Below are positions 1,880-7,445 of a stretch of 61,354 nucleotides of DNA, piece after piece; positions within the stretch are counted from its first letter, which is position 1; each line of letters begins with the position of its first letter. The translations under genes and the position numbers were made by a program. This stretch comes from Alicyclobacillus pomorum DSM 14955 (GTDB lineage: Bacteria > Bacillota > Bacilli > Alicyclobacillales > Alicyclobacillaceae), in assembly GCF_000472905.1 (NCBI RefSeq), contig NZ_AXAR01000001.1:365069-426422 (forward strand), read 5' to 3'. Below the pieces are notes generated by a model. The model made no database searches. It was given only the letters and a program-made list of their open reading frames with translations, and was not told the DNA's origin.

Positions 1880-4800
1880 ATGGCCAAAACCAGCAGGAAA
1901 CTGCCAACAACTGAACAACCGACAGTGCAACTTTGTGGGCAGTATCTGCCGGGGAAAACATTTGCGGAACCAGGAACGGGAGTGTTTTGGTCCACCGAAA
2001 GTGACTTGACAGAGAAAGAAGTTGAACATCATCTGCGCTCCATACTCGGGGATGCGGCGGACGTACGGTTTTCCGCTGTGGGTGTGCAGCGTGTCGATGC
2101 AAAGAACGCCGTTTCGGTGGATGAAGCGACGTTTTTTGCAGTGGTCTGTAAACTGGCCTCCAGTGTGCGGCCTTCGTCGAATGCACTGGAGCCGTTTGGA
2201 CAGCAGGTGTCTTCAGAGCTTGCTTTTTACGCGCATCTCCTGAGGCTGGCAGCAGCACTCGTGGACAGTGGAGAGGTGTTGGCGTTTGCCGCTCCACAAA
2301 CCAGCGCGTGGCCGGACGTGTACGACATTTGCTTCGAGTTGGCTGCGAGCGGGGAAGATGCGCTTGGCGCATGGGGGTCAGCAGTGGGAAACTACAGTGC
2401 GGTGTGGGCGCCGGCTTGGTCCAATCCGAAGCATCGAGCGCTGCGCAGCATGTGGATGAGCGTGGCGGAGGAACTGTGGGCCAAGCCCACACCCTCTGGG
2501 CTTCGCGACCTGCGTGTACCCCACAGTCCGTCTCTGCTGGCGGAGCTGTGGATCTGGCGCTGTGTCGATATCCTCATGCGCAAATTCGGCAAACCCAAGC
2601 TCGCTTTGCGGCATGATTTGGGTTCTTCGTATCGGGTGATGTACCGCGGCGAGGAAGAACTGTTCGACCGCTGGGTGGCGGCATTGGAAGGCCCGGACAA
2701 TGCGTTTTTCGCCGACGGTTGGCTGATTTGGCGGACGCTGCGGCATGTGCTGGCGCCAAGCGGGTGGCAGAGGGAGTGGCTGACGGACAAATCCGGGAAG
2801 ACGAACTACCACCTGGAGGTGGAGCTGGTCCCACCTCCGATGGACGGAGCACTGGCGGACTGGAAACTCGTGCTGTACGTCGCACACAACGAGTGGAACG
2901 CGCGGGCGCCACTGGCGGACTGGTGGCTGCAATCGGGGCGGCGGTGGCAGATTGGACAAGAAATTTTAGAGGCGCCGGATACGTGGATTCTGCCGAAGTT
3001 GCTCGAGGTCGCAGACATCGTTCCTGCACTGAAACACGCACTGGGGCAGCCCGCTGTGTCAGAATGTTCGCTGTCGCCGGAGGAAGTGTTCACATTTCTT
3101 ACCGAGCAGTTGTTACAGTTGGAGGACATCAGTGTACCTGTGCGTTACCCGGACGTATCCACTCAATCTCTGGCGGACGTGCGCATCAAGATGCAAGTTC
3201 GGCGTACCCGTCCAAAAGCGACGTCGAGCCGCAAGGGAATGCCTGCTGAACGGTGGTTCTCGGCAGACCAACTGGTGGATTTCGACTGGACTGTGGTGCT
3301 GGGTGACGTCGAACTATCCCAGCAGGAATTTGAGCAGATGGTGGAGCGGCGGACGCCGTTCGTGCAAGTGGGCGGATCTTGGAGATTGGTTCCCATTCAG
3401 GCCGTGTTAGAGCAGATTGAGCAGTTGCGGGCTGGGCGAGGATCCGAGAATCTGGGTGCGGTGCAGTTTTTGCGGGCGGTGCTGATGGCACAGAGCGAAG
3501 GCGAAGACAGTGTCCAGGTGGACGTCGAGTTCGATGAGGGAGCGACGGACGCACGGCGCATCTTGAAGGCGTTGCTGGACGCCCGGACGCCCACGTTGCA
3601 GCCGACGCCGGACGGGTTCCAGGGGACGCTCCGGGATTATCAGCGGTTTGGCTACTCCTGGCTCTGGCATTTACGATCCGCGGGCTGCGGCGCGGTTCTG
3701 GCCGACGATATGGGGCTTGGCAAGACCATCCAGGTGCTCGCTTATCTGCTACGACTGAAGGAGACGGGATGCGCTCGCGGTGTACACCTGCTCGTCTGTC
3801 CAACCTCGCTGGTGCAGAACTGGCGGTCGGAGATGGCGAAGTTTGCGCCGAGTTTGAAAGTGTACGTGCACCATGGGGCAGATAGGAATGTGAGCGTGGA
3901 GAGTGGCCGCAGTCCGTTGGAGGTAGCGCTCGAGGAGTGCGACGTGGTGATGACCACGTACGCGACGGTCGTTCGCGACCTGGAGTTGTTGCAACCGTTG
4001 GCGTGGGACGTGGTGATTGCCGACGAAGCGCAGAACATCAAAAATCAGGACACCAAGCAAGCGCAGGCCATCTGTTCGTTGATGGGATACCATCGGGTGG
4101 CGCTGACGGGGACGCCGATGGAAAATCGCCTGGAAGAGCTGTGGTCCATCCTGCAGTTTGTAAACCCTGGGTATCTAGGCAGCGCGGCCTGGTTCCGCAA
4201 GACGTTTGCACAGCCGATTGCACAAGGTCGGGAAGGGGAGGCAGCCGCACGACGGTTACATCGGTTGCTGCAGCCGGTGCTCCTGCGCCGCAGCAAAACG
4301 GATCCAGCCATCCAAATGGAGTTGCCGGAGAAGTGGGAGTACACACAGTACGCGGGATTGACGACGGAACAAGCGGCGTTGTACCAGGCGATTGTGAACC
4401 AGTTGTTCGTGGAATTGCCGAGCGAAGGGATGTCCAGACGTGGGCAAATTCTCGCGTCGCTGGTGCGGCTCAAACAGGTCTGTGATCACCCCTGCCTGAT
4501 TCAGGGCGGGCGGACAGGGCCGGACAGATCCGGGAAGTTGAAACTGCTGCTCGATTTGTTGGAACCTGTGGTGAGTGAAGGCGAAGCGGCGCTGGTGTTT
4601 ACACAGTTCCGGGAAATGGGTTCCATTCTGTGCAGCGCTTTGGAAGAGCGGTTTGGCTGGCGGCCCAGGTTTTTGCACGGCGGCCTCAGCGCGAGCGAGC
4701 GTGGCGAGTTGGTCGAGCGCTTTCAGTCTGGGCAAGACCCGTCGCCTGTCCTTGTGTTGTCGCTCAAGGCGGGCGGTGTGGGGTTGAATCTCACGCGGGC

Positions 4801-5095
4801 CAACCACGTCTTCCACTACGACCGGTGGTGGAATCCGGCGGTGGAAGATCAGGCGACGGATCGCGCATTTCGCATTGGACAGGTGCGTGACGTTCAGGTG
4901 CATAAGCTGGTCTGTCCGGGTACCTTGGAAGAGCGCATTGATGCTTTGATTCAGTCGAAGCGAAGTCTGTCGTCCGCAGTTGTCGGCCGGTCGGAAAGTT
5001 GGATTACAGAGCTGGACAACGATGCGCTGCAATCTTTGTTTGCGCTGGATCTGCAAGCTGCATTGGAGGACGATGAATGGCGAAGCGAAAAGTGA
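1880..5095 (+). CDS. SNF2/Rad54-family ATPase (helicase-like)
   Basis: A 1071-residue protein with a long N-terminal region typical of bacterial SNF2 proteins (SNF2-associated domain, about residues 1-560), followed by the two RecA-like lobes. Visible motifs are the Walker A DDMGLGKT (about 609-616), the Walker B box DEAQ (about 715-718), the LTGTPMEN motif III and the C-lobe ATDRAFRIGQ (about 990-1000). These predict an ATP-driven DNA translocase that remodels protein-DNA complexes; the actual substrate is unknown. The start is ATG at 1880 with GGAGG nine bases upstream. The last 19 bases overlap the SWIM gene, so the two products are probably made together and may form a complex. Confidence 0.92.
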   Translation: MAKTSRKLPTTEQPTVQLCGQYLPGKTFAEPGTGVFWSTESDLTEKEVEHHLRSILGDAADVRFSAVGVQRVDAKNAVSVDEATFFAVVCKLASSVRPSSNALEPFGQQVSSELAFYAHLLRLAAALVDSGEVLAFAAPQTSAWPDVYDICFELAASGEDALGAWGSAVGNYSAVWAPAWSNPKHRALRSMWMSVAEELWAKPTPSGLRDLRVPHSPSLLAELWIWRCVDILMRKFGKPKLALRHDLGSSYRVMYRGEEELFDRWVAALEGPDNAFFADGWLIWRTLRHVLAPSGWQREWLTDKSGKTNYHLEVELVPPPMDGALADWKLVLYVAHNEWNARAPLADWWLQSGRRWQIGQEILEAPDTWILPKLLEVADIVPALKHALGQPAVSECSLSPEEVFTFLTEQLLQLEDISVPVRYPDVSTQSLADVRIKMQVRRTRPKATSSRKGMPAERWFSADQLVDFDWTVVLGDVELSQQEFEQMVERRTPFVQVGGSWRLVPIQAVLEQIEQLRAGRGSENLGAVQFLRAVLMAQSEGEDSVQVDVEFDEGATDARRILKALLDARTPTLQPTPDGFQGTLRDYQRFGYSWLWHLRSAGCGAVLADDMGLGKTIQVLAYLLRLKETGCARGVHLLVCPTSLVQNWRSEMAKFAPSLKVYVHHGADRNVSVESGRSPLEVALEECDVVMTTYATVVRDLELLQPLAWDVVIADEAQNIKNQDTKQAQAICSLMGYHRVALTGTPMENRLEELWSILQFVNPGYLGSAAWFRKTFAQPIAQGREGEAAARRLHRLLQPVLLRRSKTDPAIQMELPEKWEYTQYAGLTTEQAALYQAIVNQLFVELPSEGMSRRGQILASLVRLKQVCDHPCLIQGGRTGPDRSGKLKLLLDLLEPVVSEGEAALVFTQFREMGSILCSALEERFGWRPRFLHGGLSASERGELVERFQSGQDPSPVLVLSLKAGGVGLNLTRANHVFHYDRWWNPAVEDQATDRAFRIGQVRDVQVHKLVCPGTLEERIDALIQSKRSLSSAVVGRSESWITELDNDALQSLFALDLQAALEDDEWRSEK

Positions 5096-5814
5096 ACAAG
5101 GCAAATTTGGTTGAGTCCCATTGGAAAGTGCTGTTTGACAAGGCGGAGAGCAGTCGGCTGCGGCGCGCAAAGGTCACGGCGAAGCAGGGTGTGGTGAAAG
5201 GTGTCACTGTCGCTGATAAGGTGATTGTAGCAACAGTGAAATTGGGCAGGTCTGGAAGTTTTCGCGTGCAGGTTCCGACCGTAGACTGGTGGGCAACGTT
5301 TTTGGACGAGGTTGCGATATGGTTGTCGCGGCGTCCAGATTGGCTGGCTGCGCTATATGCCAAAACGTGGAACGACGAGTTTTTGGAGTTTGTGACGCAG
5401 GCGGGATTGTCGCTGTTTCCACAGCCATCGATGGTGGACGAGTGGATTTCCGGCGTGCGTTGCACCTGCTCCGACCGTGAACCGCTGTGCCCACACGTTC
5501 TGACACTGGTGTACCACCTGGTGTGGGAAATGCAAAGGAATCCACTGGCAGCGTTGACATACGTCGGCCTCGATGTTGAGAAACTGCTGTCCAGCGCAAA
5601 AGCCCACAGCGTCGTCGCGGCAAGGGCGTTGTGTGGGCGAATGACGACACCTGCACCCGCGTTGCAAGTGAACCTTTCCTGGCAGCAAGAGGAGGAAATC
5701 TGTCTTCTCGGCGCGTCGACAGAGACAAAATCGGTGCTGAGGCACCGAATTGAACCCGAAGTTCGATTGACCCCTTGGACGAACTGGAAGAAAACTCACA
5801 TGACGTGGGAGTGA
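5077..5814 (+). CDS. SWIM zinc-finger protein
   Basis: A 245-residue protein containing the SWIM pattern CxC-x6-CxH, seen as CTCSDREPLCPH at about residues 129-140. SWIM domains bind zinc and are thought to mediate DNA or protein contacts. The gene starts inside the end of the SNF2 gene, an arrangement common for this pair in Firmicutes and Actinobacteria, which implies a joint function. The residues after about 180 look divergent. The 3' end overlaps a small ORF on the other strand. Confidence 0.85.
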   Translation: MAKRKVNKANLVESHWKVLFDKAESSRLRRAKVTAKQGVVKGVTVADKVIVATVKLGRSGSFRVQVPTVDWWATFLDEVAIWLSRRPDWLAALYAKTWNDEFLEFVTQAGLSLFPQPSMVDEWISGVRCTCSDREPLCPHVLTLVYHLVWEMQRNPLAALTYVGLDVEKLLSSAKAHSVVAARALCGRMTTPAPALQVNLSWQQEEEICLLGASTETKSVLRHRIEPEVRLTPWTNWKKTHMTWE

Positions 5815-5991: not shown

Positions 5992-6110
5992 TGTCCCATA
6001 CATATAGACGCCTGTCAGAGTAAAAACGTTTCATCGGAGAAAAATGAATTTCAGTATGCAGCCACATGCTCGGTTAGAAAGTCTGCCCCAGAATGACCAG
6101 ACATTTCATG

Positions 6111-6124
6111 CGAACATATGTTTG
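6111..6124. promoter_or_regulatory. LexA (DinR) box 1
   Basis: CGAACATATGTTTG matches the Bacillus SOS-box consensus CGAAC-RNRY-GTTYG at every position. It overlaps or abuts the -35 region of the imuB promoter, so LexA bound here should block RNA polymerase. Confidence 0.88.
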
Positions 6125-6149
6125 TTTTTTCGGTGTGAGAGCATATAAT
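6122..6149 (+). promoter_or_regulatory. imuB-dnaE2 promoter
   Basis: The candidate -35 is TTGTTT (6122-6127) and the -10 is a perfect TATAAT (6144-6149), with a 16-bp spacer. The -35 overlaps LexA box 1. LexA box 2 lies just downstream of the expected transcription start near 6156. Confidence 0.75.
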
Positions 6150-6162
6150 GTGTAACAAAAAG

Positions 6163-6176
6163 CGAACATGTGTTCC
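6163..6176. promoter_or_regulatory. LexA (DinR) box 2
   Basis: CGAACATGTGTTCC matches the Bacillus SOS-box consensus at 13 of 14 positions. It lies about 14 bp downstream of the -10 box. With box 1 it brackets the promoter, 52 bp centre to centre, which is about five helical turns. Confidence 0.8.
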
Positions 6177-6196
6177 TGTGGAAGCCGGTGAAAGAG

Positions 6197-7441
6197 ATGC
6201 GCTTTACACTCTACGGAGAAGCCGAAGGGGTGCTCGGAAGTGCCAAAGAGACGCATTGGGCAACGGTTGCCCAGGGCGTTGTGACCGATGCTTCCGTCTC
6301 TGCGCGTACTCAGGGTGTGCTTCCCGGCATTTCGGCAAAGGCGGCAAAAGCGTTGGTTCCAGGGATTGTACTGGAAGACGAGCCTGATGAGCCCACTTCG
6401 GTCATGCGAGCGATTTGGGAGCGTTTGTGGGCTTCTTCTCCATGGCTGGAAACTGTGGGGAAACGGGTGTTCTTGCTGCAAATTCCCGGACGTACCCCGC
6501 CACTTCGTGAAGCCCGAAATCTGCTTTTGTCCCTCGAAGAACAATTGTCTGAAGAGCAGCGGATTCGCGCTGGCTTAGCGGAAAATCCATTTTTGGCGAG
6601 AGCGCTGGTGGAATGGAGCCGATTGGAGCGGGTTCCGGAGGCGCTGTATTACAAAGTGGGCAGACAGCAGTGGCTGTTATCTCCATCACTGGCTGCATGG
6701 CTTCGGAAGGGAGGGCCATACGCGCCATTTGGCACATGGGTGCACAACCTTCCGCTGGCGGCGTTGTGGACACTGCCAGCGGAGAGCAAGGACAGGTTGC
6801 TGAAGCTAGGAGTTTCCCGGCTTGGGCAGCTCGAACAGATTCCGAAGCCGCATCTGTTTCGGCACTTTGGCAAGGAGGTACTGCTTTGGCTTCGACTGCT
6901 CGACCAGGAGCCAGGTGGAACCGTACGGGTAAATTACCCGCCTGTGCAACGGAAAAAAGTTTGGATTGCACCGTTGGGAGAGCAGGTAGAAGTGGCTCAC
7001 ATGGAAGAACTGTTGCAGTCTCTGACTGGCGAACTTGCAGTGGAGTTGGAGCAGGCGGCTTGTGGTGCCTTGAATGTTCGCATGGATTGGGAAAGTGATG
7101 TAGCCGAGGGTTCTTTTGAAAGAGTCACAAAGAAACCTGCGTATACTGCGGAGGCGCTGCAAGCCGCACTGTGGCCAGGGCTGGATGCATTTCGTGGTTC
7201 GGCGCTTCGGCGGTTGGAAGTGTCCGTGGCTGACATTCGCCCTCTGCAGTCCGTTCAATCCTCGTTTGCCATCAAAAACGGTGCGTTTGTCCCGTCTGAA
7301 GAAGTGTCGCGAAACGACTTGAGCCGACTCCTGTACCACGTCAATCGGAAATTCCCGAAAGGACTGCAAGTGGGCTTACGTCCCACCTTTCGAGAACTTC
7401 GGTTGAAGGCCGTGCTCGAGGACGCGCACCACGGGGGCTAA
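6197..7441 (+). CDS. imuB: ImuB-like, inactive Y-family polymerase homologue
   Basis: A protein of about 414 residues. The SARTQGVLPGISAKAAKALVPG stretch near residue 50, split here at its PGIS turn, matches the palm/fingers start of ImuB. A helix-hairpin-helix-like thumb follows (RLLKLGVSRLGQLEQIP, about 210-226), then a little-finger-like C-terminus. The acidic catalytic triad of active Y-family polymerases is not visible, as expected for ImuB, which acts as an adaptor in the ImuABC (DnaE2) translesion mutasome. No C-terminal clamp-binding QLxLF is obvious. An in-frame ATG at 6170 lies inside LexA box 2 without a Shine-Dalgarno site, so ATG 6197 (or GTG 6188) is preferred. dnaE2 begins five bases after the stop. 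Confidence 0.82.
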   Translation: MRFTLYGEAEGVLGSAKETHWATVAQGVVTDASVSARTQGVLPGISAKAAKALVPGIVLEDEPDEPTSVMRAIWERLWASSPWLETVGKRVFLLQIPGRTPPLREARNLLLSLEEQLSEEQRIRAGLAENPFLARALVEWSRLERVPEALYYKVGRQQWLLSPSLAAWLRKGGPYAPFGTWVHNLPLAALWTLPAESKDRLLKLGVSRLGQLEQIPKPHLFRHFGKEVLLWLRLLDQEPGGTVRVNYPPVQRKKVWIAPLGEQVEVAHMEELLQSLTGELAVELEQAACGALNVRMDWESDVAEGSFERVTKKPAYTAEALQAALWPGLDAFRGSALRRLEVSVADIRPLQSVQSSFAIKNGAFVPSEEVSRNDLSRLLYHVNRKFPKGLQVGLRPTFRELRLKAVLEDAHHGG

Positions 7442-7445
7442 GCGA

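Follow-up and report, generated by a model that had tools for sequence, protein, structure and literature searches.

Two LexA boxes bracket the -10 of a predicted SOS mutagenesis operon in Alicyclobacillus pomorum and its relatives

The window, a stretch of 61,354 nucleotides from Alicyclobacillus pomorum DSM 14955, contains a promoter that would be repressed by LexA through two separate steric blocks and would control an SOS mutagenesis operon. This reading, to which a probability of about 0.87 is given, is built on the sequences, their conservation and spacing, the protein families and the gene order; together these point to LexA binding at both boxes, a putative start site between them, a presumed -35 role for the first box, probable induction by DNA damage and candidate partner proteins. 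Taken as a whole, the locus is a sound SOS switch of a fairly ordinary kind; what is unusual is the operon downstream of it. The elements are collected in Table 1.

Table 1. Promoter elements and genes of the predicted SOS operon (positions in the window).
Feature	Position	Strand	Basis or remark
LexA box 1, CGAACATATGTTTG	6111-6124	+	Predicted; ends in TTG, the first three bases of the putative -35 hexamer
Putative -35, TTGTTT	6122-6127	+	Overlaps box 1; inferred from the distance between box 1 and the -10 and from the TTG-type hexamers of relatives
-10, TATAAT	6144-6149	+	Sequence; TATAAT or TATACT in 33 of 33 family promoters
LexA box 2, CGAACATGTGTTCC	6163-6176	+	Predicted; about +7 to +20 of the inferred transcript
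Inactive Y-family polymerase-like protein, ImuB-like, 414 aa, no ImuB-C domain	6197-7441	+	PF00817 match below cut-off; profile; AlphaFold2; Foldseek
4-bp gap where 33 of 33 relatives have a standalone ImuB-C-type gene (about 80 aa)	7442-7445	+	
dnaE2-type DNA polymerase III alpha subunit, 1039 aa	7446-10565	+	Pfam domains; NCBIfam; adjacent in all 34 loci

At the promoter, palindromes of the GAACN4GTTC type stand on either side of TATAAT, and the window sequence bears out the flanking arrangement described in an earlier, sequence-only reading of this DNA. The scores given there, a perfect box 1 and a box 2 matching at 13 of 14 positions, hold against the consensus CGAACNNNNGTTYG, from which box 2 departs by one base, but not against the Gram-positive consensus CGAACRNRYGTTYC (quoted in PMC2248561), which box 2 matches at 14 of 14 positions and box 1 at 13, the last base being off. 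The starts of the two boxes lie 52 bp apart, equal to 4.95 turns at 10.5 bp per turn, and a gap of 16 bp separates the putative -35 from the -10. The proposed hexamer is a weak match to TTGACA, agreeing at only 3 of 6 positions, and a mechanical promoter scan of the window called no sigma-70 promoter here. ATG 6197, and not GTG 6170, is the likely start codon of the first gene, since homologues align from this codon and a TGA lies just 5' of the aligned ATG in two relatives (G016 and G004). Directly upstream of the promoter, the frame at 5077-5814 encodes a protein without a Pfam match, carrying a CxC...CxxH motif that we take to resemble a SWIM zinc finger, and this frame is itself preceded by a gene for an SNF2-type helicase (1880-5095; PF00176, PF12419).

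Single boxes mean little, and genome-wide they barely rise above chance. With up to two mismatches, the window has 142 box matches where 148 are expected, and exact CGAACNNNNGTTYG occurs 18+13 times in the whole genome, compared with 7+11 for the reversed control. Many other matches in the genome fall within genes and look like chance. The paired arrangement, for which the sequence-only reading had suggested a genome-wide search, turns out to be uncommon: just 2 places in the 3.4 Mb genome have it, namely the imuB-type promoter and that of lexA, and the control gives 1 match. Over 41 family genomes the pairs number 55+54 against 16+7 in the control, a palindromic pair being scored on both strands. 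The decisive support comes from conservation at the same promoter, in 33 of 34 genomes including that of the window.

These 34 are the family genomes, among the 41, in which the first-gene protein was found, and 33 of them carry both boxes around a -10; the relatives include Alicyclobacillus contaminans (G016), fastidiosus, suci, acidiphilus and tolerans. The genomes are related, and the promoter counts are therefore not independent. In the exception, G030, the gene itself retains a box-2 core, and a full two-box promoter stands about 6.2 kb upstream of it. Inserted DNA splits its promoter at box 2, with the core ACATATGT at both edges beside IS-like ends, and the genes of the insert look, by eye, like transposition genes. 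In the sister family, 3 of 18 genomes match below 1e-40 and all three have both boxes around a -10; a fourth match, in G052, is a fragment only. Among 398 genomes drawn from the class (E up to 1e-20), matches outside the order occur only in two genomes of one genus, which from the gene order we take to be Kyrpidia. Both retain a box-1-like palindrome ending in GTTTG before TATAAT, in favour of the main reading; box 2 is absent from their promoters, which weighs against it.

The geometry of the 33 family promoters distinguishes a fixed element from a movable one. The distance from the start of box 1 to the -10 is 33-35 bp (sd 0.61), and box 2 follows the start of the -10 by 9-20 bp (sd 2.82). 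All 33 box 1 sequences have T at position 13 (GTTT-type), and all 33 box 2 sequences have C there (GTTC-type). The six bases from position 12 of box 1 read TTGTAT, TTGTTT, TTGTGT, TTGCAT or TTGCTT in 30 of the 33, and position 17, beyond the box, is T in 32. The near-fixed distance, combined with the TTG-type hexamers of the relatives, suggests that box 1 most likely also provides the beginning of the -35, its distance to the -10 being set by the promoter itself. Box 2, by its variable place, would most likely be a movable roadblock near +1. The 11 bp over which box 2 slides, together with its loss from the two Kyrpidia-like genomes, would suit an alternative in which one box matters, with box 1 repressing over the -35 and box 2 as a minor accessory; this is unlikely, however, as the GAACNNNNGTTC core of box 2 is intact in 33 of 33 family promoters.

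The same layout extends beyond this operon. Ten further two-box stretches were chosen because they hold TATAAT or TATACT, the near-identical copies in G004:C2 and G014:C252 being excluded. In nine of them box 1 lies 33-35 bp before the -10; in G006 the distance is 44 bp, which counts against the -35 reading and slightly lowers the odds of the main reading. The layout precedes a Y-polymerase gene in six of the ten (G004, G007, G008, G024, G026 and G028), an identity checked with Pfam for G007 and G028 only. A small gene comes first in five of these six and is taken, by its place, for yolD; that of G007, the sole one tested, has no Pfam match. The stretch in G006 precedes something other than a Y-polymerase gene, and that in G034 a frame with a weak Y-family match.

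The distance between the boxes bears on a second proposal of the sequence-only reading, that about five helical turns separate them and that repression may be cooperative or looped. In such a model, a pair of LexA dimers sharing a helical face would touch across these turns. Near five turns is indeed what the window has, but the figure does not extend to the family, where the spacing ranges over 42-53 bp (sd 2.63) with a cluster at 46-49 bp. The spacing is non-random (R = 0.35; Rayleigh p of about 0.016, a value that presumes independent promoters, which these are not), in favour of such contact, but it gathers near the half turn: 23 of the 33 spacings lie within 0.2 turn of a half turn, placing the boxes on nearly opposite faces, and only 8, the window's among them, within 0.2 turn of the whole turn expected of a cooperative or looped operator pair. 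About 50 bp is also short for a DNA loop, and this short distance and the half-turn cluster make looping unlikely. Bacillus thuringiensis LexA is, moreover, described as binding neighbouring sites independently, without cooperativity (PMC4551915). Cooperative or looped repression is thus highly improbable.

Elsewhere in the genome, a single match to the LexA DNA-binding family is followed by an S24 peptidase domain. Three boxes lie between the LexA domain and a divergent LysM gene; in our reading they precede the likely start of lexA, the listed open frame beginning among them. Repair-type genes are among the others that the box precedes; it stands before recA, an SRAP gene, a radical-SAM gene, a DinB-superfamily gene (PF05163) and a DUF5131/M78-peptidase pair, so that the genomic LexA is accompanied by the same box before both lexA and recA. 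The earlier claim of direct LexA control is upheld as far as the boxes, the -10 between them, the mutagenesis-type operon and the similar boxes before lexA and recA are concerned; from these we infer the binding of LexA itself.

The first gene encodes a protein whose match to PF00817 falls just under the cut-off. A profile of this protein and 17 relatives matches DinB-type polymerases, and the AlphaFold2 model has a mean pLDDT of 85.4 and a pTM of 0.65. All of the best 50 Foldseek rows are Y-family polymerases, with 14-18% identity. Their TM-scores are only 0.38-0.55 and the rmsd is large for most, which in our reading of the model would reflect shifted domains and not a different fold. At columns 90-91 of the HMMER alignment, the place of the catalytic D-E, the window protein has R90-V91; D-E is absent from these columns in 34 of 34 proteins, and none of the 34 has an acidic residue at 91. 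Three of them (G002, G003 and G011) show D-E one column earlier, where a register shift is possible. Judged by these residues, the protein is catalytically inactive. A viral-contig scan found no close relatives of it.

For the second gene, the best NCBIfam model is the error-prone DNA polymerase PRK05672 (902.5 bits, under the cut-off of 939); another DnaE and a PolC-like gene are present in the genome. In one relative (G014:C107:150502-152380) the dnaE2 matches come in four pieces with short open frames, and the gene there may be broken or misassembled. The imuB-dnaE2 pair named in the sequence-only reading is retained in the adjacency of Y-family and dnaE2-like genes, but not in the nature of the first gene, whose product is inactive and lacks an ImuB-C domain. 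Nor is the pair a standard cassette: a third gene, of about 80 aa, lies between the Y-family gene and dnaE2 in 33 of 33 relatives, and the window locus has no ImuB-C domain either on or beside the Y-family protein. This small gene fits the standalone ImuB-C described in PMC3765255 and PMC6511836. The Pfam DUF6504 cut-off is passed by two of three ImuB-C-type proteins tested and failed by the operon copy of G016. The operon is a Kyrpidia-type variant, with an inactive Y-family protein and a DnaE2-type polymerase, and not the standard ImuA-ImuB-DnaE2 cassette.

One full-length ImuB-C homologue of 79 aa is encoded elsewhere in the window's genome, with a LexA box that begins 31 bases before its start. 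That this is the operon gene in a new place was considered and dropped. A. contaminans carries two copies, one in the operon and one that is 61% identical to the stray copy; a tree of 80 columns groups the latter with the stray copy at support of 91/87 and resolves little else. Since A. contaminans thus holds an operon copy alongside a closer relative of the stray copy, the operon gene was probably deleted in the window's genome, not moved. The solo paralogue lies at L093 1498-1768 (G000:C33:43426-43696), has its own LexA box, AGAACAAACGTTCG (minus strand), and adjoins a gene that by eye resembles a broken transposase; a further ImuB-C-type fragment (L134 639-773, G000:C33) is 69% identical to it over residues 8-55. 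The loss is confined to one genome in 34, which leaves room for a degenerate mutasome, in which the DnaE2 pathway is dead without its ImuB-C gene and the promoter is a relic. Both remaining frames are nevertheless full length and the boxes intact, the paralogue with its own box exists, and Streptomyces coelicolor is described as having a PolY-DnaE2 pair without ImuB-C (PMC6511836); decay of this kind is rather improbable.

In the mechanism proposed for the LexA-repressed promoter, a LexA dimer on box 1 would cover the -35, which would begin in the right half of the box (GTTTG running into TTGTTT), and a second dimer on box 2 would cover the stretch just past the start site. Each would sterically block RNA polymerase, and jointly they would keep costly genes repressed. 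Upon damage, activated RecA would induce the self-cleavage of LexA, freeing both boxes, and the operon would then yield two proteins for error-prone lesion bypass, DnaE2 and the inactive Y-family protein. RecA presumably stands in for ImuA, and the ImuB-C paralogue, which has a LexA box of its own at another place in the genome, perhaps participates.

Some of the two-box matches mark the ends of insertion sequences of the IS1595 family, assigned through Pfam matches to the IS1595 transposase and zinc ribbon. A survey of 59 genomes gave 20 transposase loci in 13 of them (E up to 1e-60). At 19 of the 20, a LexA-type box lies within -120 to +30 relative to the estimated start, a raw count uncorrected for chance. 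IS1595-type elements lie inside LexA boxes at L161, L162 and L163 (also L151-L153) and at L136 4985, 5351-5413 and 11249. Two copies, in G016 and G021, are flanked by perfect 8-bp duplications of the box centre, ACATATGT and ACACACGT; together with the bases outside them, these duplications make up a LexA box at each junction. A third, in G017, also lies between LexA boxes; here the two 8-bp repeats are mismatched at two positions, and a different, outer pair of repeats was preferred by the automatic search. The degenerate copies at the imuB promoter of G030 form a fourth case. A duplication was found at 12 of the other 17 loci, none of them a LexA box, which would confine any targeting to one subgroup. 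It is tentatively proposed, at somewhat less than even odds, that LexA operators in this order, box 2 of G030 included, are insertion targets of a LexA-controlled IS1595-type element that duplicates the central 8 bp and, through its ends (TCTGG...CCAGA), re-creates a LexA box at each junction; the twelve copies outside LexA boxes lower these odds slightly. If true, the mutagenesis operon of the host would be derepressed by DNA damage together with an element that jumps into SOS promoters. For a transposase under LexA control, ISCR elements offer a described precedent (PMC13393415). In the titles and abstract openings of the best literature matches, no report of insertion into LexA boxes was found, which is not proof of absence. 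The viral-contig scan found no close relatives of the transposase, and plasmid records yielded IS1595 transposases only below 60% identity (382 records).

In conclusion, the promoter probably represents an order-wide SOS design in which the operator seemingly serves as the -35 and a second operator, flexible in position, acts as backup. The two boxes here and the single box in the Kyrpidia-like genomes offer a natural comparison for the role of the second, and the window lends itself to asking whether a DnaE2 mutasome works when the operon copy of ImuB-C is absent. A literature query for Alicyclobacillus and LexA matched PMC3919608 only, whose Alicyclobacillus passage concerns polymerase distribution; the best matches of a second such query did not mention Alicyclobacillus in the text retrieved.

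Among known systems, the LexA-regulated imuA-imuB-dnaE2 cassette is likewise described as a LexA-controlled operon for an inactive Y-family protein and DnaE2 (PMC3919608, PMC6511836), whereas the window operon lacks an ImuA gene and ImuB-C and has a Bacillus-type LexA box. The Kyrpidia tusciae operon is reported to encode an inactive Y-family protein, a standalone ImuB-C and DnaE2 (PMC6511836). In the Kyrpidia-like genomes the homologous Y-family gene is likewise followed by ImuB-C and dnaE2; these genomes lack box 2, whereas the window lacks the ImuB-C gene. The DinB2-DnaE2 pair of S. coelicolor, as described, also combines an inactive Y-family protein with DnaE2 without ImuB-C, a likeness by description only, but the window pair seems to be what is left of an operon of three genes. 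Multi-box LexA promoters of Firmicutes, with 1 to 3 occurrences of the motif per promoter (PMC2248561), share the same box and its repetition; in the window, by contrast, the two boxes keep conserved positions around the -10, and the -35 appears to come from one of them. LexA-controlled Y-family and DnaE2 operons and multi-box LexA promoters in Firmicutes are thus already known, and the novelty lies in detail: two boxes kept on either side of the -10, a box 1 that apparently serves twice, and an ImuB-C gene lost from the operon in this one genome.
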